Source of the DNA: a virus
Strand: one strand, 5' to 3'
DNA: 37,206 nt
Virus record (IMG/VR): IMGVR_UViG_3300031269_000041
Location: 1-37,206 of that record
Below, piece after piece: positions 1 through 37,206 of the stretch (within the stretch, counting starts at the first letter, position 1; every line of letters begins with the position of its first letter). A program made the translations under genes and the position numbers. The notes under the pieces are model-generated. The model made no database searches. It had not been told where the DNA came from and saw only the letters and a program-made list of their open reading frames with translations.

Positions 1-263
1 ATTGAGGGTAAGTGCATCAAGACCAATGATCCACTCATCAAGCCTCAAGATATGATTTCAGGAGTTATCACATGGATGAACTAAGAGAAAAAATATGCCT
101 TAGCCTTTGTGACCTAACTGGGGTTGCGAGCAACCCATGGAGAAATACGCATAGGGTTATCTGTGCTGATATTCAAAGCGGCAATAATGTTGTTTTGGAT
201 GAACTTAGCACCCTGCTTCATGGGGGGGGATCATCTTGATGTCGATGTTATCATCGCCCAACC
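1..263. repeat. Left copy of terminal overlap (contig closes on itself)
   Basis: These bases match 36944-37206 at a constant offset of 36943. Two places differ: the two central bases of a short palindrome (GA at 128-130 here, TC in the right copy) and a G run at 222-229 that is 8 G here and 7 G on the right. The overlap carries the end of the 607-aa gene (to 84) and the start of the methyltransferase gene (from 72). Reading the genome as circular or circularly permuted joins the early operon without a break. Confidence 0.95.
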
Positions 264-678
264 TCCATGCACTCACTTTGCCCTGTCTGGGGCTAGATGG
301 TGGGAGGGCAAGGGGGAGGAGGCTATCCTTGAGGGTCTTCAGGTTGTTGACGCTTGCTTTAGGATAGCGTTCATATGCAAACCAAGGGTGTTCATGCTGG
401 AGCAACCAGTGGGTAGGCTGATTAGATGGATAGGCCAGCCAAGGATGAGGGCTCACCCTTGGGAGTTTGCTGGTTACGCTGATGACCCTTCCTCAGAAGG
501 CTACACTAAGAAAACATGCATATTTGGAGAGTTCAATATTCCAGATAAAAAACCATGGGAAGGTATTATAGACAGGAAGAAAATACACTATGCGTCCCCT
601 GGAAAGTCCAGAAGAAACATAAGATCAGCGGCTCCACAAGGAATGTGGAGAGCTTTGCACCAATCAAACAAAGGATAA
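72..678 (+). CDS. Short cytosine-C5 DNA methyltransferase (frameshifted in this copy)
   Basis: The ATG at 72 overlaps the end of the 607-aa gene (stop 82-84). Read with the 7-G version seen at the right end of the contig, the frame runs unbroken to 678 and gives about 201 aa. Visible motifs are a motif I-like CDLTG near residues 13-17, the catalytic motif IV PPC at 64-66 followed by THFALSG, and an LEQPVGRL segment resembling the ENV/LEN-P-GRL region. In this family the PPC cysteine attacks cytosine C6 for methyl transfer from S-adenosylmethionine. The protein is about half the usual length and shows no clear target-recognition domain. In this copy the eighth G at 222-229 shifts the frame, so only codons after it continue to 678. 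It is followed after 6 bases by the Sak4-like gene. It may protect phage DNA from host restriction (inference). Confidence 0.75.
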
Positions 679-684
679 AAGATC

Positions 685-1401
685 ATGGCTTTTAATTTCA
701 AGATAACGACAACAAAGCAAGCGGCTCAACACCAGGGGATCAAGGTGTGTGTCTATGGAGGGGCTGGAGCTGGGAAAACCAGACTGTGCGCAACATGCAC
801 ACCAGAAGACCACAGCAAGACACTCATCATCAGCGCTGAGAGCGGGCTCCTCTCCTTGAGGGGAGTTGAGATCCCAGTGGTCCAGGTGAGCAAATTTGCT
901 GAGCTGGAGGAGGTCTATCAGTTCCTCAAGGCTGGAGAGCATAGGTTTGAGTGGGTGTGTCTGGACTCCATCAGTGAAATTGCTGAGCAATGCCTCAAGC
1001 ATTACAAGGAGCTTCATGGTGATGGGGCTAATGGATGGGCAATATATGGATCACTGTTCAGCGAGATGGATAGCATCCTCAAGCGCTTCAGGGATCTTCC
1101 TATGAACGTCTACATGAGCGCGAAGATGGAGCGAGACAAGTCTGATGATGGGACGCTCCTTTACTTGCCCATGATGCCTGGGAACAAGCTCACAGCTCAG
1201 CTCCCATTCCTCTTTGATGAGATGTTCTGTCTCCACTCATTCAGTGAGACCACTGATGATGGTGTTGTGATCCACAGGAGGTTCCAGACCTTCAGGGATC
1301 TCAAGTATGAGTGCAAGGATAGGTCTGGGGCTCTTGACCCCTGGGAGGATGCTTCCCTCTCCCACATTGCCAACAAGATCAACTCCCACCTGGAGGGGTG
1401 A
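685..1401 (+). CDS. Sak4-type RecA-like ATPase (AAA_24), single-strand annealing
   Basis: The protein has 238 aa. A Walker A motif GGAGAGKT is at about residues 25-32, a Walker B-like WVCLDS at 90-95, and a conserved YMSAKMERDK segment near 150 is typical of the phage nucleotide-binding AAA_24 family. Members such as Sak4 are single-strand annealing recombinases that act with an SSB and an exonuclease, and both kinds of gene follow here. The ribosome site is AAAGGAT, 9 bases before the ATG. The stop overlaps the next ATG by one base (TGATG). The annealing role is inferred from family and context. A purely regulatory ATPase is the alternative. Confidence 0.8.
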   Translation: MAFNFKITTTKQAAQHQGIKVCVYGGAGAGKTRLCATCTPEDHSKTLIISAESGLLSLRGVEIPVVQVSKFAELEEVYQFLKAGEHRFEWVCLDSISEIAEQCLKHYKELHGDGANGWAIYGSLFSEMDSILKRFRDLPMNVYMSAKMERDKSDDGTLLYLPMMPGNKLTAQLPFLFDEMFCLHSFSETTDDGVVIHRRFQTFRDLKYECKDRSGALDPWEDASLSHIANKINSHLEG

Positions 1402-1583
1402 TGCACTGGATAGCATCCATGATTTTTGCTCCCATCTTCATCCCCTTCCTTGCCGCTGAAAGGGCTGTAAGGATGGTGAAGATGAGATTCAATAGGGACA
1501 ACCGCTGTCCTTTCTGTGAAGCCCCTCAAGGGGATGATACATGCTCAGCTTGCTCCACTGGAGCCGCTGGCCAAACGACTTAA
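1401..1583 (+). CDS. Small membrane protein with zinc-ribbon tail
   Basis: This 60-aa protein has not been recognised. An N-terminal hydrophobic stretch (residues 2-18, rich in I, F, A) is followed by a basic linker and a four-cysteine knuckle CPFC-N8-CSAC in the last 25 residues, typical of a small zinc ribbon. The ATG at 1401 overlaps the previous stop by one base, so it is translationally coupled to the Sak4-like gene; an in-frame GTG at 1398 is possible but less likely. Conserved knuckles and tight coupling suggest a real gene. Function is unknown. Confidence 0.6.
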   Translation: MHWIASMIFAPIFIPFLAAERAVRMVKMRFNRDNRCPFCEAPQGDDTCSACSTGAAGQTT

Positions 1584-1639
1584 ATAGAGTTCCTAAACCG
1601 ATCCCTTCACATGGTGTGATAAGGATCAAAACACAAACA

Positions 1640-1656
1640 TTGCCGCTCAGCGGCAA
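1640..1656. promoter_or_regulatory. Perfect 8-bp dyad just upstream of the SSB-like gene RBS
   Basis: TTGCCGCT-C-AGCGGCAA is a perfect dyad with a one-base centre. It lies immediately before the AAAGGAT ribosome site of the DUF669 gene. As RNA it would form a compact hairpin ending 2 bases before the Shine-Dalgarno sequence. As DNA it could be an operator. No T tract follows, so it is not an intrinsic terminator. Confidence 0.5.
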
Positions 1657-1669
1657 AGGATAAAACGCA

Positions 1670-2152
1670 ATGGCTAGACTCAACAAACCAATCAACTCCA
1701 GCGATCAAGACGACTCAAACGACTTCAGCCCCATCCCCCCAGGTTGGTACAACGTGGAGATCAATGAGGCTGAAATCAAAACATCCAGCTCAGGTGATTA
1801 TGATGCTGTGAACGTCACATTTAGGATCATCGGTCCGACAAATGGAGGCAGGTTGATCTGGAACTGGTTCAACTATGACAGTGCAAAAGTCCCAGAGGAG
1901 CGACGTGGGGACAGGATGAAAAAGGCTATCCAGATTGGGCGCTCAGAACTCAACCGTATGTGTAGAGCCGCTGGACTTCAGGGGGAACTTGAAGACACTG
2001 ATGATTTGCTCAACCGCACACTTCAGTTGAAGATTGCGATTGACAAGAAAGACTCTGATAGAAACGCGGTTAAGGGATACAAGGCTGTTGATGGTGAGAA
2101 CAATGAGGGACCATCCAACACCAAGCCCGCTGGAGCACCTCCATGGATGTGA
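1670..2152 (+). CDS. DUF669-type single-stranded DNA-binding protein
   Basis: The protein has 160 aa. The start resembles DUF669 proteins: an acidic, Ser-rich N-terminus, then PIPPGWYNVEI and a beta-rich core with VTFRIIGP and GRLIWNWFN, followed by a helical part containing ELNRMCRAAGL. DUF669 members accompany phage recombinases and act as SSB-like proteins. The tail ends in GAPPWM, similar in style to the protein-docking C-terminal tips of SSBs. The ribosome site CAAAGGATAAAA is the same as that of the Sak4-like gene. A transcription terminator follows at 2189-2234. Family assignment is fairly firm; DNA binding is inferred. Confidence 0.75.
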   Translation: MARLNKPINSSDQDDSNDFSPIPPGWYNVEINEAEIKTSSSGDYDAVNVTFRIIGPTNGGRLIWNWFNYDSAKVPEERRGDRMKKAIQIGRSELNRMCRAAGLQGELEDTDDLLNRTLQLKIAIDKKDSDRNAVKGYKAVDGENNEGPSNTKPAGAPPWM

Positions 2153-2188
2153 TCCACTGAGCATGAGCACTGAGCCGTAAACTTTAAC

Positions 2189-2234
2189 AGCGCGCTGGAG
2201 ATGAGCCCTGAGCCGTTCCAGCGCGCTTTCTTTT
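2189..2234 (+). terminator. Intrinsic terminator after the SSB-like gene
   Basis: An 11-bp stem (AGCGCGCTGGA at 2189-2199 with TCCAGCGCGCT at 2217-2227) is followed by TTCTTTTG. The position directly after the DUF669 stop suggests partial termination inside the early operon, giving more SSB-like protein than downstream nuclease and helicase. Confidence 0.8.
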
Positions 2235-2245
2235 GAGATACAGAC

Positions 2246-3460
2246 ATGACGAAACTAAACTTAGACACAACGGTTAAAAGGATCTTCAAATCCTATGAGG
2301 TCAATAGGAAGGACTGGAGGAGGGATCACCTGGGAGCCTCCATCATTGGCAAGGCTTGCGAGCGCGCTACATGGTACGCCTTCAGGTGGGCTCATAAGCC
2401 TAATTTCCCAGGGAGGATATTGAGGATGTTCAACACTGGTGAGAGGGAGGAGGAGCGCCTCACATCAGACCTCATCAGCATTGGTCTCATGGTGCATGAG
2501 GTTGATGAAAGCACGGGTGAGCAATTCAAGGTTGTGGGACTTGATGGACACCTGGGAGGCTCCATGGATGGAGCGGCAAAGGGCTTTGTTGAGGCTCCTG
2601 ATTCATGGCATGTGCTGGAGTACAAAACATCAAGCGACTTTGCATTTAAGCGCCTGGACAAGCTGGGTTGCCTTGGCGCAAAACCTGAGCACTATTATCA
2701 GATGATGGTTTACATGGGGGGGGCTGGACTCAAGAGAGCCGCTTACCTTGTGCGCAATAAAAACACAGATGATCTTTACCTTGAGTTCATCAAGTTCAAT
2801 GCGGGTGAATACAACAAGATCATGGAGAGGGCAAAGAGGATCATACAGGCTGAAAACCCACCTGAGCGAGTGGGTGAGCACATCTCAAAAATGCCTTGCA
2901 AGTGGTGCAACTACAATGATCTTTGTCTGGGTTATCGTAAGAAAAAACCAACCATGACACTCCCTGAGTTCAATTGCAGGACTTGCGCTCACAGTGAGCC
3001 CATCTTGATTGATCCAGACCAAAAGCCCACAGTCTCCATGAGGACTAATTTTGAGAGCAAGGGTGGACCATGGGCTTGTCATGCCATGGGGAGGGACATG
3101 ACACCTGAAAGGCAACGCTCAGGGTGTGAGCTTCATCTGTTCCATCCACACCTCCTGGAGCCGTTGAACACTGTTGATGGTGAGTGGTCTGAGCATCACA
3201 TCAATGGGATTCAAATGAGTGTTTCATACACCAAAGATGAAGGCTCCACATTCAACCTCATCAACCACATCTCCACAGATGAGGGCAAGGCGCGCTTGAG
3301 GGTGATAGGGTCAAGGCTGGAGATGTCCCAGGGCTTGTCTGAGGATGAGGCAAACACCATCATGGGTGGGTGGATTGTGGGAACCAGTGAGGAGCTTGCT
3401 GGGAGGGTAATAAGCCTTGACGGGGATCAGCCTATCATCATCAGTGGGGATGAGGAATGA
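2246..3460 (+). CDS. PD-(D/E)XK exonuclease, Cas4/RecB-like, with zinc-binding tail
   Basis: The protein has 404 aa. The nuclease core shows GLDGHLGGSMDG (residues 98-109, metal-binding D108) and the LEYKT motif (E125, K127), with helix glutamates EREEER at 66-71. One cysteine (C38) and a distal CKWC-N5-C set near 217-226 match the four-cysteine Fe-S arrangement of Cas4/AddB nucleases. A second cysteine cluster (CRTC, WAC, GCELH, about 243-300) forms a zinc-binding region often attached to phage exonucleases of this type. It would resect double-strand ends for the Sak4 annealing protein. An 8-G run lies at 2715-2722 without disrupting the frame. It overlaps the CsrA gene by 4 bases. Confidence 0.8.
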   Translation: MTKLNLDTTVKRIFKSYEVNRKDWRRDHLGASIIGKACERATWYAFRWAHKPNFPGRILRMFNTGEREEERLTSDLISIGLMVHEVDESTGEQFKVVGLDGHLGGSMDGAAKGFVEAPDSWHVLEYKTSSDFAFKRLDKLGCLGAKPEHYYQMMVYMGGAGLKRAAYLVRNKNTDDLYLEFIKFNAGEYNKIMERAKRIIQAENPPERVGEHISKMPCKWCNYNDLCLGYRKKKPTMTLPEFNCRTCAHSEPILIDPDQKPTVSMRTNFESKGGPWACHAMGRDMTPERQRSGCELHLFHPHLLEPLNTVDGEWSEHHINGIQMSVSYTKDEGSTFNLINHISTDEGKARLRVIGSRLEMSQGLSEDEANTIMGGWIVGTSEELAGRVISLDGDQPIIISGDEE

Positions 3461-3639
3461 GTGGACAAGGGCTCACAATCACCAGGAAAGAAGATGAACA
3501 GATCATTCTCATTCTCCCCAGTGGGGAGGAGGTGATCATCACACTTGTTGAGGCTCACAGGAGCAACGCACGAATAAGGATCAAGGCTCCCCAGGATGTT
3601 GAGATCATAAGGCCAGATTACCAAGGAGGTACACAGTGA
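3457..3639 (+). CDS. csrA: Phage-encoded CsrA-family RNA-binding regulator
   Basis: The protein has 60 aa, the size of bacterial CsrA. It aligns by eye along its whole length: LTITRK (6-11) with the CsrA start LILTRR, EEVIITLVEA with strand 2/3, and ARIRIKAPQDVEIIRPD (38-54) with the hallmark VRIGVNAPKEVSVHREE. R10 and R52 correspond to the RNA-binding R6 and R44 of E. coli CsrA. A two-residue Pro-Ser insertion sits in the first hairpin. CsrA dimers bind ANGGA motifs, usually at ribosome sites, and block translation or alter mRNA stability. Its ATG overlaps the exonuclease stop and its own end overlaps the helicase GTG. It could reprogram host carbon metabolism or tune phage mRNAs (inference). 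Confidence 0.85.
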   Translation: MSGQGLTITRKEDEQIILILPSGEEVIITLVEAHRSNARIRIKAPQDVEIIRPDYQGGTQ

Positions 3640-5123
3640 AGATCAGGACGCAAGATGAGTATTGGGTGGGTGTCCCATTCCCCCCTAGAAATTGGCAAGA
3701 TGAGGCATTACACACAGTGATCCAGGCTATCCAGCCTGGAAACAGACCTATCGTTAGGGCTGTGACTGGAGCTGGTAAAAGCTACTTTCTCAGTGAGGTC
3801 TCCAGGTGTTTCATCCCCTCCAGGATGGAGAGGGTGATCATCACTACACCCACAGTGAAACTGGTTGATCAGCTCCACGCAACCCTCACAAAACACCTGG
3901 GGAGGGGAAGGGTTGGAAGGTTCTACACGAAAGCAAAGGACACGAGACAACCATACATTGTATGTTGCATCCCCAGTGCTGTGAGCCTTGCTGAGGAGCT
4001 TCACAAGCAAGGTGTGAGCGTTGCCTTGTGGATTGCTGATGAGGCTCACAGGACTGAAACTGGAACCATGCTGGACGCTGAGGAGGCTATGGGTCCTGAT
4101 AGGGCTGTGGGCTTCACTGCTACACCATTCAGAAGTGATCCTGGTGAGGCTCTCTCACTGTGGGATGAGATTGTCTGGAACTATGGACCCGCTGAAGCGA
4201 TCAGGGATGGTGTGGTTGTACCCTGGGAGCTGAGGTTCTGGACTGGAGCTGAGGATCTTGACATTGATGAGGTGTGCGCTCAGATGATCGCTGGAGCCGT
4301 CCAGCGCGCTGAGGGGCCAGGCGTTGTGAACGCCATCACCATCCATGATGCTGAGGAGTTCTCAACCCTCCTGGGAGGATATGGGGTGAGAGCTGAGCCC
4401 ATCCACTCAAAGCTCCATGAGAAGGAACAGGAGCGGCTCATCAAGATGCTTGAGGGAGGCAAGATTGATTGCCTTGTTCATGTCTCATTGCTCCAGGAGG
4501 GAGTTGATTTTCCCTGGTTGATGTGGCTGTGTTTGAGGCGTCCTGTGAAATCAAGGGTGAGGTTCATTCAGGAGGTTGGAAGGGTCTTGAGATCATACAA
4601 GGATAAGCTCAAGGCAATCATCTATGATCCTCATGATCTATTTGCATCCTTCAGACTCGACTACAACGCAATCCTTTCAGGTGATGTGGATGAGAATGAT
4701 GTTCCTGTTGAAGCTATGATGAGGGAGGTGAGCGTCTATGTTGATGAGCTGTTCTCAGCTCCCCTCCAGCGCCTTGAGGCAAGACCAAGGTTCATGGGCT
4801 CAGTGAGCGCATACCTGAGACAGCTATCAGTTGCTTTTGATGCTGCTGGACGCACTGAGAGAGCAACCTCAACACACTGGAGAAAGGACAAGGCGACTGA
4901 TCGCCAAGTAAAGGCAATCTGGCGCATGAAGTTTGTGCTGAAGATGAATCACTCTCAGACCATCCCTGATGGTCACAGGATGGCGCTTGCTGTGGCTGTG
5001 GAGAGGAGGGAGGAGCTTACAAAAGGTGAGGCTGGAGACCTCCTCAATGTGCTCAAGTCCCTCCAGGGAGATCCATCATGGCCAGACCTTTGCAGCATCA
5101 TGGTGAGCGCTCAGGTTGCATAA
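3636..5123 (+). CDS. Superfamily 2 DNA helicase (DEAH)
   Basis: The protein has 495 aa and a GTG start at 3636, chosen because a perfect AAGGAGGT lies 7 bases upstream; the start overlaps the CsrA stop. Helicase motifs appear in order: RNWQDEAL (Q-motif-like, 18-25), Walker A TGAGKS (44-49), Ia ITTPT (69-73), DEAH (135-138), TATPFR (161-166) and motif VI QEVGRVLRS with the arginine finger near 315. A C-terminal 100-residue region with TDRQVKAIWRM is common in phage helicases of this family. It would unwind or remodel DNA during phage replication or recombination. It is the last gene of the rightward operon. Confidence 0.88.
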   Translation: MKIRTQDEYWVGVPFPPRNWQDEALHTVIQAIQPGNRPIVRAVTGAGKSYFLSEVSRCFIPSRMERVIITTPTVKLVDQLHATLTKHLGRGRVGRFYTKAKDTRQPYIVCCIPSAVSLAEELHKQGVSVALWIADEAHRTETGTMLDAEEAMGPDRAVGFTATPFRSDPGEALSLWDEIVWNYGPAEAIRDGVVVPWELRFWTGAEDLDIDEVCAQMIAGAVQRAEGPGVVNAITIHDAEEFSTLLGGYGVRAEPIHSKLHEKEQERLIKMLEGGKIDCLVHVSLLQEGVDFPWLMWLCLRRPVKSRVRFIQEVGRVLRSYKDKLKAIIYDPHDLFASFRLDYNAILSGDVDENDVPVEAMMREVSVYVDELFSAPLQRLEARPRFMGSVSAYLRQLSVAFDAAGRTERATSTHWRKDKATDRQVKAIWRMKFVLKMNHSQTIPDGHRMALAVAVERREELTKGEAGDLLNVLKSLQGDPSWPDLCSIMVSAQVA

Positions 5124-18123: not shown

Positions 18124-19485
18124 TCATGCGATCAGTTTACCGCTGTATGATGTCTTGTTGATTGCTCCAGCAAGGTAGAACTCAAAGGTGATTGTGGGTA
18201 GTGATCGTGTTGCCCTCTCAGCGCTTGTCATGGTTCGCACATCCACAGCATTGATCACAGGAGCGGGCTCATCTGTGAACAGTTGAGTGTTGAGACCCTT
18301 TGCAAAGCGATCTCTCAGGATGTTGGTGAAGATCGCTTTTCCAGCGTTTGTCATGGGGATTTTGCTTCCACTCTTTGACGCCTCAACCTTTGCCTGGAAT
18401 GATGCCTCCTCAAGTCGTGTGGTTGTCCAGTCAATCCCCAGGAGGACATCCATCCACTCTCCTGATGATGCCTTGCAATCCTCACCAGTCACAGTGAGAC
18501 CTCCAGCTACATCAGCAAAGAATCCATTCTTTGCCTCAAGGAATGCGCGCTCACCACTCGTGATGGTTGCTGGGGTGATTCCAGGCATAGGCACATTATT
18601 GTAAACTGTAGAGCGCTCATCAGCGTTCACTGAGAGCCTGTTCCCATGAAGGGCAACGTTGGGAAACTCCCAAAAGCGATCAGTCCAGAAGATCCCTCCA
18701 TCCCTGGAGAGGGTCTGTGCAGCGCTCAGAACATCATCAGTCGCACTGGTAATGCAATCAGCATCACTGGTGAGACCCATGGGGAGCTTGCGCCTTGTCT
18801 GGCACCATGCAAGGAGAGCCAACACATCAGCCTTTGTGGGATTGAGTAGAGCCACACCATAGAAGTCTGAGTTCTCCAGGAGGCAAGCATCCAGAGCCTC
18901 AGCAACGGTCTCAGCGCTTGCTGTGTTTGCCGTGGTGTTTGCAATGGATTGAGATCCATCCACAGTTGATGTGAATCCCACACCTGGGAAATCACTTGTG
19001 ACGATGTATTCACCCGCTCCCCCATCAGTCACAGTCACAGGAAGGGGTGAGTTGTTGATCTCCAGCTTGATCAGATCCCTGATCTGTGAAGCTGAGGGTG
19101 TGCCTGATGGAGCTGTGATCCTCACCTCAAATGTGACCCCAGTTGGGAGCTTGTAAGCATAGGTGTAGACAGCCTCAGCGGTTGCTGTTCCCACAGTGAT
19201 TGTGTCCACCTGAGCGACACCCACAGCGCGCCTCCCAACCATCACTTTCTGAGGAGTGAGATCCATCCCCAGGAGGTTTGAAACAGCAATTTTCTCAGCG
19301 TCCTTGTCTGTGAATCCAGCGTCTTGCATCCCCTTGAGGATGTCCGCTCCAGCTCCAGCAAAAAGCTGTGTGCGCTCAGGAAAACGCGCGTGCTCTCCCA
19401 GAACCAGCAAGGTTCCAAAACCAGCGGTTGAGAGGTTGACTGTTCCAGAGATGATCTGGACGTTTTCACGATCAGTGATTCCCAT
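18124..19485 (-). CDS. Tail sheath protein (DUF3383)
   Basis: The protein has 453 aa. The start (NVQIISGTVNLSTAGFGTLLVLGE) and the C-terminal domain with TNAGKAIFTNILRDRFAKGLN and DVRTMTSAERATRSLPTITFEF match DUF3383-type sheaths. A Thr/Val/Gly-rich inserted region (about 95-195, with VTDGGAGEYIVTSDFPG) looks like an exposed surface domain. Contraction of this polymer drives the tube through the host envelope. Confidence 0.82.
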   Translation of the reverse strand: MGITDRENVQIISGTVNLSTAGFGTLLVLGEHARFPERTQLFAGAGADILKGMQDAGFTDKDAEKIAVSNLLGMDLTPQKVMVGRRAVGVAQVDTITVGTATAEAVYTYAYKLPTGVTFEVRITAPSGTPSASQIRDLIKLEINNSPLPVTVTDGGAGEYIVTSDFPGVGFTSTVDGSQSIANTTANTASAETVAEALDACLLENSDFYGVALLNPTKADVLALLAWCQTRRKLPMGLTSDADCITSATDDVLSAAQTLSRDGGIFWTDRFWEFPNVALHGNRLSVNADERSTVYNNVPMPGITPATITSGERAFLEAKNGFFADVAGGLTVTGEDCKASSGEWMDVLLGIDWTTTRLEEASFQAKVEASKSGSKIPMTNAGKAIFTNILRDRFAKGLNTQLFTDEPAPVINAVDVRTMTSAERATRSLPTITFEFYLAGAINKTSYSGKLIA

Positions 19486-26795: not shown

Positions 26796-28327
26796 GCTCT
26801 CCCAACAAAGAAAGGTTCATCTGTAAATTGTCCAGCATATGTGAGGATCAGCGCATCAGCGTAATCAGGTGATTTATAACCCTCAAGTCGCCTGGACATT
26901 GCTTTCTTACTCTCCATCAAAACCCTACCCCTTGAATCTGTCTCAGCAAGGGGTAGCGAGAGTTCAGCAATGAGTTGAGGATGGTCTGGGAGTGAGATCA
27001 TTTCGTTTGGGTCTGAGCCCACTCCCTCATGTATATAGCGGTAAGTGTTCTCACACAAGCGCCTCACATACATCCACAGCTCAGCTTTGAGGTTAGCGTA
27101 TTTCTGTGTACCTGTGCGCTCATCAGGATACTCTCTGTTTGATGCTGAGTCTCCCACATTGATCCCTGAGTGGTTGAACTTCCTCCTTTCCCTGTTGAGT
27201 TCACCCTCAACACCCGCACCAATGCCGATAACATCATAATAGAGATCAGATGATCCCCACACATCCATGAGTTGTGTTGCCCACATTGCAACCTTTGTTG
27301 TGTCGTTTAGATTTGTGTGCTGAGGTTGCTTGATCCATGGTCCATTCCTTGGGATGAAAACGCTGAGATCCTTCCCTCCTTTTGCCACATCAAGCCCTGA
27401 GACTATCCCCTTGCCCACCTTTTGAGGGTTGGGGAGTTCAGCATTGACGCAGGCAACCACGTACTTTGAAGGGATTGCAATCCCTTCCACTGAGGCTGTG
27501 TAGTCAATGTCAATCTCCTGAGCCACAGTCACAGCATCATAGAGGAGACACATCATGTTGTACCACTCCTGATCCTTCCTGGGATCTCTTGTCCAGTGCA
27601 TCCTAAACTTACGATAAGCTGAGTTGTTTACCTTGCTGTGGAAGCTATTTCCTATGCCATTTGCGGTTGATCCATAGATGATGCAATTAGAGTTCTGAGA
27701 GAGCCCCTTATCCACCTTGCGAGCGCGTTGCACAAAAGCCCACTCATCAGCAAAGTACAGTGAGGAGCGTCCACCTCTCCCCATCTCATCTCCAGCTTCA
27801 CCCAAGATTGATGAACCGTTGTGAGGGTTTTTGATGGTGAGCAACTTATCATGCACCCTCCTATCAAAGCCTTCAGGTATCATCCAGGCTGGGAGGTTAT
27901 TGATGATGAACCTGATCTTTTCAAAGATGGAATCAGGGCTCTCACGCTTGTCTACAAGCTCCTGCTTTCGTGACCCAAACTTAGCAACAGTTCCCCTCCT
28001 GAATAGCCAAAGCCACACAGCAAAAGAGGCACAAAGCCAAGTGAATCCCATATCCCTTGACTTCTCAACAACACCATGAGTCTTACCTGTGAAGCGCTCC
28101 AGCAACCACTCAATGAACTCCACCTGGAACTCAAAGAGATCCATGGGGATGCTTGAGGGCTTGCCCTCATCAGCTAGCCTGGGATCTGATGTCCACACCC
28201 AGTGGTTGATGAAGTGGACTGGGTCACGCCTGCAACGCTCCCAGTCCAGCTCCTTAAACTCATGATCATCAAGACACAGATCAAGATGATCCCATCTTTG
28301 ATCTAAGCCTTTGCGTAAGTTCAGCAT
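26792..28327 (-). CDS. terL: Terminase large subunit
   Basis: The protein has 511 aa from the ATG at 28327 (a GTG is 3 bases upstream). The ATPase has a Walker A-like VVEKSRDMGFTW (about 86-97), Walker B LYFADEW (190-196) and coupling motif YGSTANG (about 218-224). The nuclease has GLDVAKGGKD (D313), YYDVIGIG (about 364-371) and DYADALIL near the end, the three-acidic-residue RNase H pattern. It packages DNA into procapsids. It overlaps the small subunit gene by 47 bases. Confidence 0.92.
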   Translation of the reverse strand: MLNLRKGLDQRWDHLDLCLDDHEFKELDWERCRRDPVHFINHWVWTSDPRLADEGKPSSIPMDLFEFQVEFIEWLLERFTGKTHGVVEKSRDMGFTWLCASFAVWLWLFRRGTVAKFGSRKQELVDKRESPDSIFEKIRFIINNLPAWMIPEGFDRRVHDKLLTIKNPHNGSSILGEAGDEMGRGGRSSLYFADEWAFVQRARKVDKGLSQNSNCIIYGSTANGIGNSFHSKVNNSAYRKFRMHWTRDPRKDQEWYNMMCLLYDAVTVAQEIDIDYTASVEGIAIPSKYVVACVNAELPNPQKVGKGIVSGLDVAKGGKDLSVFIPRNGPWIKQPQHTNLNDTTKVAMWATQLMDVWGSSDLYYDVIGIGAGVEGELNRERRKFNHSGINVGDSASNREYPDERTGTQKYANLKAELWMYVRRLCENTYRYIHEGVGSDPNEMISLPDHPQLIAELSLPLAETDSRGRVLMESKKAMSRRLEGYKSPDYADALILTYAGQFTDEPFFVGRA

Positions 28328-28817
28328 CACTCATATCCTTGTGTTTATCTTCATCTACTCGCTTGCCAAGTCCAGCAACCCTGAGCTGGATCTCTTGAGG
28401 CACAGTCACACCCGCACGATTGAGAGCCTCAATGGTTGCCCTCACATTTGGTGAGGTAGAGTCTGGGTCCACTGTGTGCTCAATGAGGGTGAGAGCAAGC
28501 TCCTCAGCGCGATCAATGAACACGCCCCTTGCCTTTTCAATCGCTGCAAGCCTTGCCTCAAGCTGAGCATCCTCAGCGGCTCTCACCTTATCTCTCTTGA
28601 GCTTGCGCTGATAAGCGTCGTGATCCTTTGCGCGTTGCACCCATTGATATTTAGAACTCCACACCTCAAGGACCTTCTTATATCCTTCAGGACGCCCCAT
28701 CATGTGAGCCACAGCCTTAGCTGATCTCTCTCCAGGCTCAAGGATGTAATACACCTCAAAAGCCTCATATGATTTGGGGGATTCATCCTCCATCATGTGC
28801 CATGACTTTCCATTCAT
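28281..28817 (-). CDS. terS: Terminase small subunit
   Basis: The protein has 178 aa. An N-terminal helix-turn-helix-like region (about 15-60, with ERSAKAVAHMMGRPEG) is followed by WVQRAKDHDAY and a long charged helix (72-110), which is typical of small terminases that recognise the packaging site and form rings. Its GGAGAG ribosome site lies only 10 bases after the T run of a strong terminator, so late transcription must read through that terminator or start very near it. Confidence 0.8.
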   Translation of the reverse strand: MNGKSWHMMEDESPKSYEAFEVYYILEPGERSAKAVAHMMGRPEGYKKVLEVWSSKYQWVQRAKDHDAYQRKLKRDKVRAAEDAQLEARLAAIEKARGVFIDRAEELALTLIEHTVDPDSTSPNVRATIEALNRAGVTVPQEIQLRVAGLGKRVDEDKHKDMSDAELTQRLRSKMGSS

Positions 28818-29752: not shown

Positions 29753-30286
29753 TTAGAGCACTGAGAGCACAAATGATTTGACCCTCTCGTGATGCTCCTC
29801 CCTGGTAAGCGGGCTCACTTCGACGATCACCCCACACTTGAGCAAACAAAACGGTTTTTGCAACCTCTCCTCATCTGTGAGGGTGTTCAATATGATCTTA
29901 TCAGCGTCCATGCTCATCACCTTGCGATCATCAACCCATATACAGCCACAGCCTTTGATCTTTTGACCTCTCAGGAGCTTGCCCCTTGTGGGTAGCTCCA
30001 CAGCTTTCTTGGTCACAACGTCCACCCCATTGAGAGCATCCATGATGCCTCCAGCGAGGTTGTCTATGTCTCCCACCCATCTCCCATCATCAAAGATGAA
30101 CAGGAGCTTGAGGAGGACATCCCCATCATACTTCTGAGTGATGCTCTGTTCAGCGATGAATGCAACCCTTGCTTTCCATTCCTTCATCCTGGGAGGTGTC
30201 CTCATGGTCTTGTTCTTTCCCGCTATGGGTCTGAGCTTGCTGACTGGTCTTGTTGGCACGAAAAAAGTTGTTTTGTGATCACTCAT
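29753..30286 (-). CDS. rusA: RusA-family Holliday junction resolvase
   Basis: The protein has 177 aa. The RusA core GDIDNLAGGIMDALNGV (72-88) contains catalytic aspartates D73, D75 and D83, and WVDDRKV (117-123) the conserved DD. RusA dimers cut four-way junctions. A 25-residue insertion (about 91-115) separates the two motifs and makes the protein longer than E. coli RusA (120 aa). Its ATG overlaps the preceding small gene (TAATGA). It would resolve branched replication intermediates before packaging. Confidence 0.88.
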   Translation of the reverse strand: MSDHKTTFFVPTRPVSKLRPIAGKNKTMRTPPRMKEWKARVAFIAEQSITQKYDGDVLLKLLFIFDDGRWVGDIDNLAGGIMDALNGVDVVTKKAVELPTRGKLLRGQKIKGCGCIWVDDRKVMSMDADKIILNTLTDEERLQKPFCLLKCGVIVEVSPLTREEHHERVKSFVLSVL

Positions 30287-30438: not shown

Positions 30439-30590
30439 GAGTGTTCCCCTATGTTAAGCCCATCCAGCGTCTCTCCGTTAGGATCTGATACCTTCCTGGG
30501 TGTTATTTGATTGATTTCTATTAAGGGTTTGTTCTGTTCTATTGTTTTTTCTTTGTCCCAGGTTTTATGTCTCAAACGATTTACCCTCAC
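30429..30590 (-). CDS. Possible 53-aa protein at the left edge of the origin
   Basis: A GTG at 30590 opens a frame of 53 codons that ends 10 bases inside the next small gene (overlap 30429-30438). The sequence is polar (KTWDKEKTIEQNKPLIEINQ and PRKVSDPNGETLDGLNIGEH). No clear ribosome site is seen, and the first decamer repeat lies within it. It may be genuine because it is translationally linked downstream, but it could be chance. Confidence 0.3.
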   Translation of the reverse strand: MRVNRLRHKTWDKEKTIEQNKPLIEINQITPRKVSDPNGETLDGLNIGEHSWN

Positions 30591-30971
30591 AGCCCTGGGA
30601 CTCTCCCCTCCCCCCCCTAAAGGGGGGAGAGGAGAGCCCAGGGTGAGTGATGCGGTGACACATACAGGTTGAGACATAAGATGAGCCGCCTGTAATGCGG
30701 GTGTGCGTATGTCTCACGGATTTGAGACATAAAACACCTGAGACATAAGCCCATTTTTGATGATTTCTCAATGATTTCAACCACTTGTTTATGTCTCATT
30801 TTTATGTCTCACGTTTGAGACATAAGATTCCTGAGACATAGAATTGAGACATAAGCCCATATCAGCCCCTTTTCCAAAACCGCTGAGACATAAGCTCAAC
30901 CGCTCACAGTGCGGGTGAGACATACCCTTGAGACATAAAAACAGCCCCTTGAAACATAGCCTGAGACATAA
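30565..30971. repeat. Array of sixteen TGAGACATAA decamers (probable replication origin)
   Basis: Eleven exact copies begin (lowest plus-strand base) at 30565, 30670, 30723, 30739, 30789, 30802, 30816, 30845, 30884, 30929 and 30962. Variants are at 30656, 30707, 30832, 30916 and 30950. Those at 30565, 30707, 30789 and 30802 are inverted. Several neighbours are 12, 13 or 16 bases apart, and 30802-30825 forms a head-to-head pair. An AT-rich stretch (30749-30808) could be the unwinding element. Apart from its left edge, the block has no credible gene and lies directly behind the primase-helicase gene. Iteron arrays of this type bind initiator proteins in phage P4 and plasmids. The origin role is inferred. 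Confidence 0.85.
30593..30643. other. Long GC-rich hairpin beside the iterons (ssi-like candidate)
   Basis: CCCTGGG plus a C-rich arm (30593-30617) pairs with GGGGGGAGAGGAGAGCCCAGGG minus its ends (30622-30643), about 21 bp with one bulged A and one mismatch and a four-base TAAA loop. No T tract follows on either strand. In RSF1010, primase RepB' starts on hairpins (ssiA, ssiB) next to the iterons, so this could be the priming site. A terminator-like or mRNA-stabilising hairpin is the alternative. Confidence 0.6.
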
Positions 30972-31008
30972 ACTCATGGTGAGCCCATCCCTTGCCGCTT
31001 GCGCGCGC

Positions 31009-33432
31009 TCATTGTCCATCATCGGGCTCCTGGGTGAATCCTTTCGGCTCCTTGTCCATGACATACACCCTTGATGTTTTGCCCTTGCTCTGAACCTCCT
31101 CCCTCTCAGGGCCGTCCTGGTAGACCCAGACCTCCCTTGACTCCACCTCAAGGATTGCTCCTGAGTCTGAGTGTTTGAAATGTGTGGGGAGGACTGGTGT
31201 GAGATCCCACACACACTCTCCATCGTCTTTTGAGATGTCTTGACCCAGTTGCATCCCCTCAACCACCATGAACCCATCAGACCTGTGGTTGGGCTTTTCC
31301 ACATCATCTGGGAGGTCCCATCCATCAGTGAGCCTGATGTATCCCTTGCTCATCAGCTCATTGATTTTCCTGGAGATGGAGGAGCGGCTCCCTAAGCCTA
31401 ATGTGTTGCTGTAGGTCTCGCAAAACGCGCGCGATGTAAGGAGCCTCCTCTCCTCCCTTCCAAGTCTATCCAGCTCCCTCAGAACAACGCTGGTTTGTCT
31501 CCCAGCCTCCAGATCCCACCTTTGCCCAATCACCTCCCCAGCAATCCTAACCTCAGCATCAGCACGAACAAAGATCCCCTCATCACCCTCAAATCTAACG
31601 ACCATGGGAGGAGGTGTCTCATCAATGCGCACCTCAAAGAAAACCTTACGCTCAGGAGCGTCCTCACTAATCTTGCTGATCACCATCCCTGATGAGTAGT
31701 AACCTCTGAGCGCTCCAGCTCCCCTGATGCAATTGAATGGATCATCCTCAAGCTCCCTCTTTGTGATCTTGGATGTGTGGTGAAGCATGATTATTGCCGC
31801 TTCAGGATTCACACGATCACGCATAGCATCCACCCTCTTGAGAAACTTGATCATCTCCTGGTTGTCATTCTCAGTGTTTCCGCTGAATACGTTCACAAGA
31901 GGATCAATCACAATCACATCAGGGCTCTCCCCATCTTGAGCCCAAAAGCTCTCCAGGAGGTCAACAGCTTTGCTCACCCCAGTATCATCAAGAGTGAGGT
32001 GAAACTTGTTGGTGATCTTGAAATTGTTCCTGAATTGCTCCTTGTGCTGAGGCTGTATGGGGAGCAACCTGAGCCGCTTTTTGAGCACGCGCTTTGACAT
32101 CTCCATGTTGAGATAAGCTACCCTCCTGGGAGCTGGAACTTTCATCCCCATCCAGTCCCATCCCATCGCAAGATGTAGGCACATATCTTGACACAGGAGG
32201 CTTTTCTGGGACTTGGGGGGACCAGCAATGAGGAGGAACTCCCCTGGAGCTACAATTCCAGGCTCAAGGAAATCATCTGGGATGGGTGTTGGATCATTGA
32301 TGAGATCCACCACATCCAACACCTCAGCGTCCTTGCTCTCCAGGAGCAACCCAGCCCCCTCCAGCTCCTTGAAAATGAAGCGCTGAGCCTGGAGCCCTTG
32401 CCGCTCCCTTGAACGGTTGATGGACTCCACAATGCTTGTCACAAACCTGAGCGCGTTGGTGTAGTCGTGTGAGGACTTGTTCTCAGTGATGTCCTTGAAC
32501 AAGGGTGGGTGATGCTGGGTTGCATCATACTTGAGCACCTCAAAGAGGGTTCTCTCCAGGCTCTCACCTCGCTCCAGGCAAGCTCCCACAATCATCTTGA
32601 GGGAGTTGTTCCTCCCTCCAGAACCTCCCAGCTTGCTCTCACCCTTGAGGTAATCCCAATCTGATGGGGGAGCCCCTCCAGATGAGCCCTCCATGTTGCC
32701 CTCCCATCCTGAGAACAGATCCTCCTCATGGATGTCCAGGCTCTCTCTCAGGTATGAGATGGAGTATCGCTCACCATCATTGCTCACAATGTCAACAGGA
32801 CGCTGATCATTCTTAATCTTGAGGTTGAGGCTCCCAGGAACCCTCAACACGCGCGCAAGGTCAAAAGTTGAGTCAAGGTGCCAACCTCTCATTTTCCACG
32901 CGCGTTGAAAGTGAGCCTGAAAACGCTGGACAAGCCCCATTGCCTGTGTGCGTTGTCGCTCCCTCTCGTGATCCCCTTCAGTTGTCCCATCACTGATGAA
33001 CTCCCAGACCTCATCAAACAACCAGTAACAGTGGAGTCCTCCCCCTGAGTGAATGGTGATCGTGGGCTCAATGGGGAGCGCATCATCCAGCGCTTCCAGT
33101 GCCTCCTCAGTGGAGCTGGGGAGTGATTTGGATGCGTGCACACCTGTTGATAGGTCCACATCAATCCACACACCAGGGATCAGGCTCACATCACTTTCAG
33201 TCCCCCTCCCACTCCTGATTCCAGGCTCCATGAGCCCTATTGAGTAATAGATGTTCTGATCTCTCCACACCTGGAGCTGTTTCTCCAGCGCGCTCCTGAA
33301 TGAACCATCCTGGAGACCGCTGATGGGGAGGAACTTTGAGCGCCTTGATGGGAGCGCAAAGAGAGCAAGCTCTCCCTCCTCAGCGTGCTCATACACCTCC
33401 TCAAAGAACTTGATTGCTTCATCTGTTTTCAT
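31009..33432 (-). CDS. Fused primase-helicase replication initiator (AEP primase + RepA-like helicase)
   Basis: The protein has 807 aa. Residues 1-230 carry primase motifs of the archaeo-eukaryotic/RepB type: VWIDVD (88-93, D91 and D93), HSGGGLHCYW (128-137, H134) and LARVLRVPGSLNLK (192-205). Residues 385-600 form a RecA-like helicase: Walker A AGPPKSQKS (403-411), YLNMEMS (440-446), Walker B VIVIDP (506-511) and MLHHTSK (549-555), as in RSF1010 RepA. Residues 645-703 look like a winged helix (RSSISRKINELMSKGYIRL). This gives synthesis, unwinding and possible origin binding in one chain, like P4 alpha (777 aa). The gene ends 38 bases from the iteron array and overlaps the repressor gene by 14 bases. 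Confidence 0.85.
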   Translation of the reverse strand: MKTDEAIKFFEEVYEHAEEGELALFALPSRRSKFLPISGLQDGSFRSALEKQLQVWRDQNIYYSIGLMEPGIRSGRGTESDVSLIPGVWIDVDLSTGVHASKSLPSSTEEALEALDDALPIEPTITIHSGGGLHCYWLFDEVWEFISDGTTEGDHERERQRTQAMGLVQRFQAHFQRAWKMRGWHLDSTFDLARVLRVPGSLNLKIKNDQRPVDIVSNDGERYSISYLRESLDIHEEDLFSGWEGNMEGSSGGAPPSDWDYLKGESKLGGSGGRNNSLKMIVGACLERGESLERTLFEVLKYDATQHHPPLFKDITENKSSHDYTNALRFVTSIVESINRSRERQGLQAQRFIFKELEGAGLLLESKDAEVLDVVDLINDPTPIPDDFLEPGIVAPGEFLLIAGPPKSQKSLLCQDMCLHLAMGWDWMGMKVPAPRRVAYLNMEMSKRVLKKRLRLLPIQPQHKEQFRNNFKITNKFHLTLDDTGVSKAVDLLESFWAQDGESPDVIVIDPLVNVFSGNTENDNQEMIKFLKRVDAMRDRVNPEAAIIMLHHTSKITKRELEDDPFNCIRGAGALRGYYSSGMVISKISEDAPERKVFFEVRIDETPPPMVVRFEGDEGIFVRADAEVRIAGEVIGQRWDLEAGRQTSVVLRELDRLGREERRLLTSRAFCETYSNTLGLGSRSSISRKINELMSKGYIRLTDGWDLPDDVEKPNHRSDGFMVVEGMQLGQDISKDDGECVWDLTPVLPTHFKHSDSGAILEVESREVWVYQDGPEREEVQSKGKTSRVYVMDKEPKGFTQEPDDGQ

Positions 33433-33763
33433 TCAGATCCCCATCATGCTCAAGCGCAAGACCACGAAAGAACCAGGGACACAACTTGACCCTGGAGACC
33501 CTCTCATCAATCGCCTGCTCAGCGGCAAACTGGTTAACCAGTCGCTCTATGTCCACAGCCCTCCTCCCATCAACTCCCACCTTCATCCAGTGATAGAATA
33601 TGGAGCGGCTCACCCCTATCAGGAGCGCAAACGATGTCACCCCTCCCACAATACGCGCGCAAGCCTCCAGCTCTCTCCTGATGAGGCTCCTCTCCTCATC
33701 AGTGATCTCCTCAGTTTCTTCATCAAGACCACACTGTGTGTGTGCCTCATACTTTCTTTTCAT
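33419..33763 (-). CDS. YdaS/Cro-like helix-turn-helix repressor
   Basis: The protein has 114 aa. The ATG at 33763 is chosen because AGGAG lies 6 bases upstream, while the ATG at 33769 touches it. A helix-turn-helix is at about 40-61 (GGVTSFALLIGVSRSIFYHWM), followed by VDGRRAVDIERL (64-75) and VKLCPWFF (92-99), the YdaS-type Cro signature (rhythm: GG..FA..IGVS...HW......RA..IER). It would bind the divergent control region and regulate both operons. It is cotranscribed with the primase-helicase gene. Confidence 0.75.
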   Translation of the reverse strand: MKRKYEAHTQCGLDEETEEITDEERSLIRRELEACARIVGGVTSFALLIGVSRSIFYHWMKVGVDGRRAVDIERLVNQFAAEQAIDERVSRVKLCPWFFRGLALEHDGDLNENR

Positions 33764-33818
33764 GATCATCTCCTGTGTTCATGCGCCTTTTGCGCTTTTT
33801 TTGAATATGTCCAGCATT

Positions 33819-35203: not shown

Positions 35204-37027
35204 ATGAGCAATCGAACCAGAAACATAAGCTCTGAGATCATCATAATCGATGATTTGATGAGTTCACCAGACCTCAACCTCAAGAGGGATTTACCATCCA
35301 TGACATCAGCCCTCATGAGGGCAACCCTCCACCTCCTCAATGGAGGGATCAAGCTGATGGATACAGATGAGGGCAAGGCTCTTGAGGCAATTTGCCTTGA
35401 ACACAAAGGAGTTGAGAACTCACCATTCATTGATCTTGGTGATGTTGCATTCATCTCCCACCTCATTGAGATGAGGGTGCATTCGTGCGGAAAAGGTGGA
35501 TCTATAATCAGGGAGGTGCTTTGCTCAGCAAGGAGGATCAAGTCTTACGCTCAAAGCAAAAGCATCATAGCTGAGCTTGATCCAGCGCTCCTCAATGGAG
35601 GAGACCGCTTTGAGCACCTTGGAATGATGTATGTGGTGATGCGCTCTCAGGTGGGGGTTGATGATTGCCTGATCATCACAAGGTGTGGAGCATCCATCTC
35701 AATCCCAAGGACTGAGAGCGTTATAGCGTTCAACCCAATAGAACTCCCCCACCTTCATGGGGGAGCCCTGGAAGCTATTGAGGAGGAGGTAAAGAACATC
35801 CACAACGCTTGTGTGTCTGTTATCCCTGAGATCATCAGGAAGTCTCCTGAGAGTGCTGTGAGCCTCCTCACCATGGACACCATCACCCAGCTCATGCCTG
35901 AAGAGCTTGAGCCCTCATCTCAGTTCGTCTCTGATGAGCATGATGTTGATCCACTTGCTGTGATGATACACCTCCAGGACAAGCTCAACATGAGCATTGT
36001 TCATGCCTTGCCTCCAGCGTTGCTCAAGAGAATTGGGGAGGACTCAACAACAATCCCACACCATCCATCCATCATTGGTCTGGGATCACTCAGTGAGGAG
36101 GCTCTCAGCGCGCTGGGTGTGCCCATAGCAAAGGGCTTTGTTGCTGGGATTGATCTGAGGATGAATGTTCTCATTGCTCAGCTCAACTCAAAGGAACATC
36201 TCAGTGAGGAGAGCGCATCAAGGATCACAACTGATCTCCACATGTGCCTTGCTGCACGCAAGGCCATCAGGGAGTTCCTCTGTTACGCAGATGATTTTGT
36301 TTTCCCTGGAGGGCTCGCAAGCTCCAGGGTGTGCATGGACTTGATGGCTGTCTATATGATCTGTGTTGATGTTGCTGGGGCCACCTGTGAGGCAATCAAG
36401 ACACTGAGGAAGGTCTCACCCCTCAACCATCCTGTTGATGTCTCCAGGGTGCGCGATGCTTTCCTTGAGCGCTGGTTCAACACGGTTATGAGGCTGAATC
36501 CTGGAGTCTCCATCATTCCAGCTCAGCGCCTACATGTGATGATCTTCGCTGATAAGGCTGTTTCCATCTTCATGGAGTCTGGACTTGTCAAGCCCTCAAA
36601 CACTGGCAAGGCGACCATTGAGACCATTGATGGAGAGCCCTCAATGATGGATAATTGGGACATCTCAACGCACAATGGGAAGATGAAGATCTACAACCCA
36701 TTTTTTGACTCCACTGTTGAGGTTGATGTGAGGACAAACACCTACACTGGAGTTAGGTCTGTGTTCGTCCTGGTGAATCCCCTCTCACGCTCCTGGAGTC
36801 GTGTTGGTGATGTGAATGCTCATGGTGAGGTGTTGCTCCTTGATCGTCTCCCCAGACCTCTCACGCCTCCTGATGTGAACATCATCAAGGTGTGTCTTGA
36901 GGGGCCAAGGTGGATATTGGAAAACAGTGATCTTGAGCTTGAGATTGAGGGTAAGTGCATCAAGACCAATGATCCACTCATCAAGCCTCAAGATATGATT
37001 TCAGGAGTTATCACATGGATGAACTAA
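35204..37027 (+). CDS. Unknown 607-aa early protein
   Basis: No domain is recognised. The protein is soluble, without signal or membrane segments, mixed helix and strand, with Cys in VHSCGKGGSIIREVLCSAR (about 92-110) and CLIITRCG, and a strand-rich C-terminus (about 470-600). The ribosome site is AAGGAAG before the ATG. Its last 84 bases are repeated at positions 1-84, and its end overlaps the methyltransferase gene start. A location between an early regulator and recombination genes suggests DNA metabolism or host takeover, without proof. Confidence 0.7.
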   Translation: MSNRTRNISSEIIIIDDLMSSPDLNLKRDLPSMTSALMRATLHLLNGGIKLMDTDEGKALEAICLEHKGVENSPFIDLGDVAFISHLIEMRVHSCGKGGSIIREVLCSARRIKSYAQSKSIIAELDPALLNGGDRFEHLGMMYVVMRSQVGVDDCLIITRCGASISIPRTESVIAFNPIELPHLHGGALEAIEEEVKNIHNACVSVIPEIIRKSPESAVSLLTMDTITQLMPEELEPSSQFVSDEHDVDPLAVMIHLQDKLNMSIVHALPPALLKRIGEDSTTIPHHPSIIGLGSLSEEALSALGVPIAKGFVAGIDLRMNVLIAQLNSKEHLSEESASRITTDLHMCLAARKAIREFLCYADDFVFPGGLASSRVCMDLMAVYMICVDVAGATCEAIKTLRKVSPLNHPVDVSRVRDAFLERWFNTVMRLNPGVSIIPAQRLHVMIFADKAVSIFMESGLVKPSNTGKATIETIDGEPSMMDNWDISTHNGKMKIYNPFFDSTVEVDVRTNTYTGVRSVFVLVNPLSRSWSRVGDVNAHGEVLLLDRLPRPLTPPDVNIIKVCLEGPRWILENSDLELEIEGKCIKTNDPLIKPQDMISGVITWMN

Positions 37028-37206
37028 GAGAAAAAATATGCCTTAGCCTTTGTGACCTAACTGGGGTTGCTCGCAACCCATGGAGAAATACGCATAGGGT
37101 TATCTGTGCTGATATTCAAAGCGGCAATAATGTTGTTTTGGATGAACTTAGCACCCTGCTTCATGGGGGGGATCATCTTGATGTCGATGTTATCATCGCC
37201 CAACCT
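36944..37206. repeat. Right copy of terminal overlap
   Basis: These bases repeat 1-263 with the two differences noted for the left copy. This version has 7 G at 37165-37171 and TC in the palindrome centre, and keeps the methyltransferase frame intact, so it is the better reading. Confidence 0.95.
37015..37206 (+). CDS. Start of cytosine-C5 methyltransferase gene (intact frame, cut by window end)
   Basis: The same gene as at 72-678. The first 64 codons are open without a shift, from MDELREKI through the motif I-like CDLTG to the A-Q-P that begins the catalytic PPC. The ATG overlaps the end of the 607-aa gene. Continuing at position 264 of the window gives the full protein. Confidence 0.75.
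   Translation, partial: MDELREKICLSLCDLTGVARNPWRNTHRVICADIQSGNNVVLDELSTLLHGGDHLDVDVIIAQP

Follow-up and report, generated by a model that had tools for sequence, protein, structure and literature searches.

The IMG/VR virus record IMGVR_UViG_3300031269_000041 (37,206 bp, analysed over its whole length and referred to here as the window) very probably carries a self-contained replication module, in which a single initiator protein binds its own iterons, melts the DNA, loads the helicase and primes synthesis. The protein of 807 residues combines a primase, a RepA-like helicase and a predicted winged helix, and its gene is followed on the 3' side by an array of decamer iterons and a long hairpin. 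Reading of the iterons by the initiator itself is proposed because, across a large family of related loci, the repeat covaries with the recognition helix of the fused winged helix.

An iteron array and hairpin lie 3' of the initiator gene

The features of the cis-acting region and of the initiator gene are as follows.

30565 to 30971, both orientations: iteron array of 16 sites, the repeat-density maximum of the genome; each of the 16 is matched by an orthologous site of the closest relative, L001
30565, 30707, 30789 and 30802: starts of the minus-orientation iterons
30656, 30670, 30723, 30739, 30816, 30832, 30845, 30884, 30916, 30929, 30950 and 30962: starts of the plus-orientation iterons
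30749 to 30788, unstranded: repeat-free AT-rich gap within the array, about 64% AT by hand count, a candidate melting or DNA-bending segment
30586 to 30647, minus strand: hairpin of 62 nt with pyrimidine and purine arms, towards the distal end of the array, iteron 30565 lying farther out
31009 to 33432, minus strand: initiator gene, 807 amino acids (AEP primase, RepA-like helicase, winged helix and beta-rich C-terminal part)

The decamer TGAGACATAA occurs in the 407-bp array as 11 exact copies and three copies with one mismatch, and two more sites with two mismatches (30656 and 30950) bring the number to 16. An earlier interpretation made from the letters of the window (the sequence-only reading) had counted 16 decamers in both orientations within about 400 bp, a count that stands only if the degenerate copies are included, as just 11 are exact. 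At one mismatch or fewer the whole window contains 18 matches, 14 of which are inside the array, compared with a mean of 3.0 and a maximum of seven in shuffled sequences. When the genome was scanned in 400-bp stretches, one 8-mer reached up to 13 non-overlapping copies at the array, and the runner-up place held four. Exact copies of TGAGACATAA were also found in 22 other viral contigs, at two to three copies each. A repeat shared with these phages was rejected, as the matches are probably due to chance; no relative of the winged-helix domain was present in the examined loci of the 22 contigs.

The hairpin was predicted to form 27 pairs on single-stranded DNA, and the 96-nt folded stretch containing it has an energy of -30 kcal/mol (z = -5.9) that none of 200 shuffles equalled. 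The AT-rich stretch and the long hairpin described in the sequence-only reading are therefore both real features of the locus. The possibility that the hairpin is an intrinsic terminator was rejected, as it was not reported by a terminator scan and is not followed by a T-run; an Rfam scan gave no match. The exact DnaA box (TTATNCACA) is absent from the whole window, as had been claimed, and matches with one mismatch occur at chance level, with none in the array; a DnaA-dependent origin was rejected on these grounds. GC skew was dropped as an origin marker: its cumulative minimum, near 34 kb, coincides with the flip of gene direction and therefore does not locate the origin.

The initiator protein is a primase-helicase-winged-helix fusion

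The domains of the initiator are encoded by the following segments, all within the initiator gene.

32728 to 33432, minus strand: AEP primase domain, residues 1-235, with motif I VWIDVD, motif II SGGGLH, then LDSTFDLARVLRVPG
31597 to 32322, minus strand: hexameric helicase domain of the RecA type (RepA-like), residues 371-612, from AAA_25, phrog_13004 and a PDB profile
31264 to 31545, minus strand: predicted winged-helix DNA-binding domain, residues 630-723, from an AlphaFold2 model
31348 to 31386, minus strand: recognition helix, residues 683-695, which includes the covarying columns R683, S684 and S687
31105 to 31263, minus strand: beta-rich C-terminal part, residues 724-776 (LPTHFK..SGAiLeVE..VWVYQDG), conserved family-wide

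Residues 1-235 match phage primase/polymerase families (phrog_2478, E = 1e-17) and include the motifs VWIDVD and SGGGLHCYW. A model of this region built on six sequences (predicted local distance difference test, pLDDT, of about 85) was matched by Foldseek to 6zp9 (E = 1e-7) and to RepB' (3h20, E = 1.5e-6). Comparison with VIA gave Z = 18.4 for the S-2L PrimPol (2.2 Å over 172 residues) and Z = 12.7 for RSF1010 RepB'. The hhhDhD and sxH motifs (WIDVD and SGGGLH), together with the AEP fold, assign the domain to the AEP superfamily. The primase motifs and RepB'-type fold of the sequence-only reading were thereby confirmed, albeit with the S-2L PrimPol as the closer structure.

The central region matches AAA_25 in Pfam (E = 2.6e-25) and phrog_13004 (E = 2.4e-54), and residues 394-795 match phrog_239, a 'DNA primase/helicase' (E = 1.8e-25). 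A direct sequence search of the PDB with the 807-residue protein returned no match. A profile of 12 relatives (A11) was also compared with the PDB, and its top chain was RSF1010 RepA (1g8y, E = 2e-5), with T7 gp4 next. This profile similarity, the Walker A and B motifs (GPPKSQKS and VIVIDP) and the HH motif (LHHTSK) identify the domain as a helicase of the RSF1010 RepA type, as had been proposed. AAA_25 was the sole Pfam helicase domain to pass, and the SF3/D5/P4-alpha and DUF927 types were rejected. Residues 604-807 were modelled with AlphaFold2 on 39 sequences, giving a winged helix with pLDDT of 84-96 over most of its length, a confidently modelled recognition helix and a beta-rich C-terminal part. 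The structural neighbours of this model are winged helices (MarR, Fur and the MCM WH) at Z of about 6, and a closely related solved structure was not found; model and neighbours both agree with the winged helix that had been called at the C-terminus.

A large helicase-winged-helix family with exchangeable primases

Queries of IMG/VR with the whole protein and with its helicase fragment found L001 as the only relative. When the aligned winged-helix and C-terminal region was used as the query, at least 548-563 loci of the helicase-winged-helix half were found. Named members are phage WO of Wolbachia, Eleftheria (one module) and one Shinella replicon (two modules); in a set of 50,697 phage records, the winged-helix/C-terminal domain was found at the thresholds used in WO alone. 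A scan of genome contigs with the window protein matched the AEP part alone, in Bacillota. The N-terminus of a TOPRIM-type relative, a type that matches NCBIfam PRK07078, was matched by 74 of 147 full-length proteins. The AEP type of the window was present only in the window and L001 among these proteins, and the remainder have another N-terminus. As AEP, TOPRIM and other N-termini precede the same helicase-winged-helix half, the primase end of the protein is exchangeable.

Arrays, hairpins and IHF sites recur in relatives

Of 46 non-redundant loci, 38 have their strictly highest repeat density in the stretch immediately 3' of the gene; this stretch is tied in six loci and lower in two. A k-mer repeat measure gave 6.5 for this stretch, against 2.7 for shuffles, 3.5 for the gene and 3.4 further downstream; the within-locus rank was preferred over this measure, which was raised in the gene controls too. 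The repeats are clade-specific and include AGTTGGCA, AGTTGGGA, AGTTTGGA, AGTTTCCA, AGTTGCCA, AAGCTGCC, CAGAATCC, CAGATTGC and AGTTAGG, among others. The layout common to the relatives is the gene, repeat copies in direct and inverted orientation, a gap, a final copy and the hairpin, which in many loci lies 8-11 nt past the last repeat. Pyrimidine-arm hairpins were found in 71 of 148 loci, compared with 14 of 1480 shuffles and none of 147 gene controls, and purine-arm hairpins in 32 loci.

The IHF consensus, WATCAANNNNTTR, occurs exactly in 11 of 46 arrays, in every case within a repeat-free gap, and in 0.4% of shuffles. None of 46 genes and none of 42 stretches further downstream contained it. 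IHF sites are well known in replication origins (PMC10797057), and the gap at 30749-30788 of the window resembles the gap that carries these sites in the relatives. In phage WO, the RepA/ATPase gene is directly followed on its 3' side by an array of AAGTTGGCA/AAGATGGCA with an exact match to the IHF consensus (7410-7620 in L011, and past the RepA stop in L201). Judged from its sequence, this array is a candidate replication origin; in the passages of PMC9203015 consulted, the origin spoken of is bacterial and none is reported for the phage WO genome.

The family-wide layout also bears on whether the array and hairpin could instead be a packaging (pac/cos) site read by the terminase. Packaging sites typically have repeats near terS, and the small terminase gene of the window (28281-28817) is about 1.8 kb from the array. 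In the relatives, however, the array directly follows the initiator gene and the next gene encodes a RuvC-like resolvase, not terS. Moreover, the repeat tracks the DNA-binding domain of the initiator, and the terminal repeat of the record (1-264 and 36943-37206) is away from the array. A packaging site is therefore extremely improbable.

The repeat covaries with the recognition helix

Covariation between protein and repeat was tested over 131 alignment columns in 34 loci, and again in a version collapsed to 21 classes. The information content of repeat positions 7 and 8 is fully captured by column 684 (z = 10.2 and 10.9), the top-ranked of the 131 columns and still first after collapsing (z = 7.3 and 7.1). 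Column 687 was first for repeat position 6, and second after collapsing. In the model, both columns fall at the beginning of the recognition helix. At residue 684, arginine is found with GC at positions 7-8, serine with CC and aspartate with GG. The second Shinella module (L200, stop at 3516) was outside the derivation of this rule; its helix is KD..R and its repeat is AGTTGGGA, as predicted. The first Shinella module (L009, 4870-7236) has the helix KH..R and the repeat AGTCAGG. As the two modules of this replicon differ in both helix and repeat, one cell holds two initiator-repeat pairs. In a tree computed with the helix columns left out, at least five changes were counted at residue 684 and at least four at repeat positions 7-8. 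The fused winged helix may determine iteron specificity.

Several points weigh against this interpretation and against the module as a whole. For three loci the repeat was placed in register manually, and six ambiguous loci were dropped. The independent pairs for column 684 agree, albeit in numbers too small for a sign test. The two-residue rule was derived without the clade of the window, whose diverged repeat defied register, and it failed when applied to the repeat of the window, where the register is ambiguous and S684 gives no visible CC. The exact IHF consensus is absent from the gap of the window, which contains only matches with one mismatch. In about 14 of 154 loci, mostly of one Rhizobiaceae-type clade, the arrays were not above 10 shuffles; these weak arrays are candidates for degenerated or different origins. 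Finally, Foldseek gave weak winged-helix matches for the C-terminal model, none with E below 0.2.

A Rhizobiaceae-type sub-clade (L032, L055, L058, L060, L062 and similar loci) was observed to carry few-copy CATATGA-like palindromes despite having the helix KH..R.

The weak fold matches of the C-terminal model to solved structures would also suit an origin that is real but whose iterons are read by a separate protein, either host DnaA or another phage protein, with the fused protein serving as helicase and primase only. There is precedent for this in RSF1010, the iterons of which are read by RepC and not by the RepA-type helicase (PMC4234260). However, the array is without a DnaA box, the repeat information is carried by helix columns of the fused protein, and the pairing of the helicase-winged-helix half with an array is kept in relatives with different N-termini. 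A separate reader is accordingly very unlikely.

All iteron flanks have switched in the closest relative

L001 is a 37,446-bp contig, and its orthologous initiator is 87% identical to that of the window. The counterpart of TGAGACATAA in L001 is TGAGACAATGA: the 7-bp core TGTCTCA is kept (95%) and the 3-bp flank is changed at 16 of 16 sites (6% identity), both identities being pooled with one spurious site. The non-repeat DNA inside the array is 66% identical, and the hairpin block is near-identical save two single-base indels. Changes in the initiator from the window to L001 include S687A in the recognition helix and N715H and R717N in the wing loop. The change of 16 flanks in concert suggests one reader. 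The claim of the sequence-only reading that the initiator reads its own decamers is thus supported by this switch and by the covariation across the family.

The reader could in principle be a regulator, with the array acting as an operator whose decamers are bound mainly for transcription control, either by the initiator or by a small helix-turn-helix protein (33419-33769). Initiators often autoregulate, and the small gene, which is Cro/YdaS-like, overlaps the start of the initiator gene. Nonetheless, the array is at the 3' end of the gene and not at its promoter, and 16 sites and a hairpin, with IHF sites in relatives, are more than an operator needs. The recognition segment of the small protein, SRSIFYHWMK, is identical in the window and L001 (proteins 77% identical) though the flank of the repeat has switched, and family-wide the repeat covaries with the helix of the initiator itself. 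It is therefore highly improbable that the array is primarily an operator.

Proposed mechanism of initiation

For the self-contained module, we infer a sequence of binding, melting, self-loading, hairpin priming and extension by a host polymerase. The C-terminal winged helix would bind the decamer iterons 3' of its own gene, with several copies of the initiator assembling on direct and inverted sites. The DNA would bend at the repeat-free gap, aided by IHF in many relatives, and the AT-rich gap would open. The fused RepA-like ring helicase would thereby be loaded without a separate loader or DnaA and would unwind through the hairpin, which, once single-stranded, may adopt the fold of an ssi-type priming signal. 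The N-terminal AEP domain would then lay the first primer near the hairpin, to be extended by the host polymerase. The open reading frames of the window that were scanned included Sak4-like, SSB-like and Cas4-like recombination genes and none encoding a DNA polymerase.

A broader proposal, which has about an even chance of being correct, is that these proteins form a large class of initiators that load their own ring helicase, which is of the RecA type (RepA-like) and not of the AAA+/SF3 type. Their winged helix would read the iterons by a rule linking residues 684 and 687 to repeat positions 6-8, so that phages and co-resident prophages could keep orthogonal origins while swapping AEP and TOPRIM primases. 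An origin and initiator can now be predicted for hundreds of integrated and uncultured phages, including phage WO of Wolbachia. This raises the questions of whether a RecA-type replicative helicase can be loaded by a fused DNA-binding domain, and whether as few as two or three residues of the helix can set origin specificity. Such a code, if real, would provide orthogonal initiator-origin pairs for plasmid building.

Comparison with known systems

Proteins with the AEP-RepA-WH plan have been on record since 2018, when Kazlauskas et al. listed them in the PrimPol-PV1 supergroup and suggested that the WH recognises the origin (PMC5862659). The suggestion that this phage had made the fusion is therefore incorrect, and relatives of its helicase-winged-helix half are numerous. 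PrimPol-PV1 proteins (PrimQH, all3500; PMC5862659) resemble the initiator in having an AEP, a RecA-type RepA helicase and a C-terminal WH, and occur in mobile elements and prophages. Their AEP is accompanied by PriCT, for which the window protein gave no Pfam match at E = 0.1 (residues 237-365 were modelled with low confidence). Origin, iterons and hairpin are not described in PMC5862659, from the main text of which the word 'iteron' is absent. In the literature searched, no earlier account was found of the family's cis arrays and hairpins, its IHF sites, the apparent recognition code or the candidate phage WO origin.

SaPI Rep and SCCmec Cch2 (PMC7581432) are self-loading initiator helicases with iterons directly downstream of their own gene, the arrangement also found in the window. 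SaPI Rep reads its iterons with its C-terminal domain, and SaPI5 Rep has a primase domain too (PMC7581432). Their ATPase is of the D5/Primase_Cterm or DUF927 type, whereas that of the window is a RepA-like RecA-type helicase from a separate sequence family.

The helicase of P4 alpha belongs to SF3. P4 alpha resembles the initiator of the window in placing primase, helicase and repeat-binding winged helix in one polypeptide, but its primase is TOPRIM (PMC4234260), whereas the window has an AEP primase and a RecA-type helicase. P4 alpha is a functional analogue only. The P4-alpha-like single initiator of the sequence-only reading therefore holds as an analogy of function. A primase of TOPRIM type is found in about half of the full-length relatives. 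RSF1010 shares the RepB' primase fold, RepA helicase, iterons and priming hairpins (PMC4234260), but its RepB', RepA and RepC are three polypeptides, of which RepC reads the iterons. The pRN1 ORF904 and phage BIP-1 replication proteins also unite AEP, helicase and winged helix; pRN1 has an essential stem-loop immediately 3' of its gene, and a comparable structure is predicted for BIP-1 (PMC4234260). Unlike the window, these systems have an SF3 helicase and a stem-loop of about 100 nt with no iteron array. The phage WO RepA/ATPase (KX522565 gwv_1128; HQ906665 RepA) belongs to the same helicase-winged-helix-C-terminal family and has a 3' array, but its N-terminus is not this AEP and it is about 18% identical to the window protein.

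Genome surroundings

A gene for a Holliday-junction resolvase lies near the origin: it encodes RusA in the window (29753-30286) and in L001, and a RuvC-like gene (LALDLGT.TGWAL, identified by eye) lies downstream of the hairpin in many relatives. Genes for a methyltransferase, a Sak4-like annealing protein, an SSB-like protein, a Cas4-like exonuclease and an SNF2-type helicase form a recombination module on the other strand, at 124-5123. The terminal repeat of the record is direct and 264 bp long, indicating a terminally redundant or circular assembly. A tail sheath protein encoded at 18124-19485 identifies the virus as a contractile-tailed phage.

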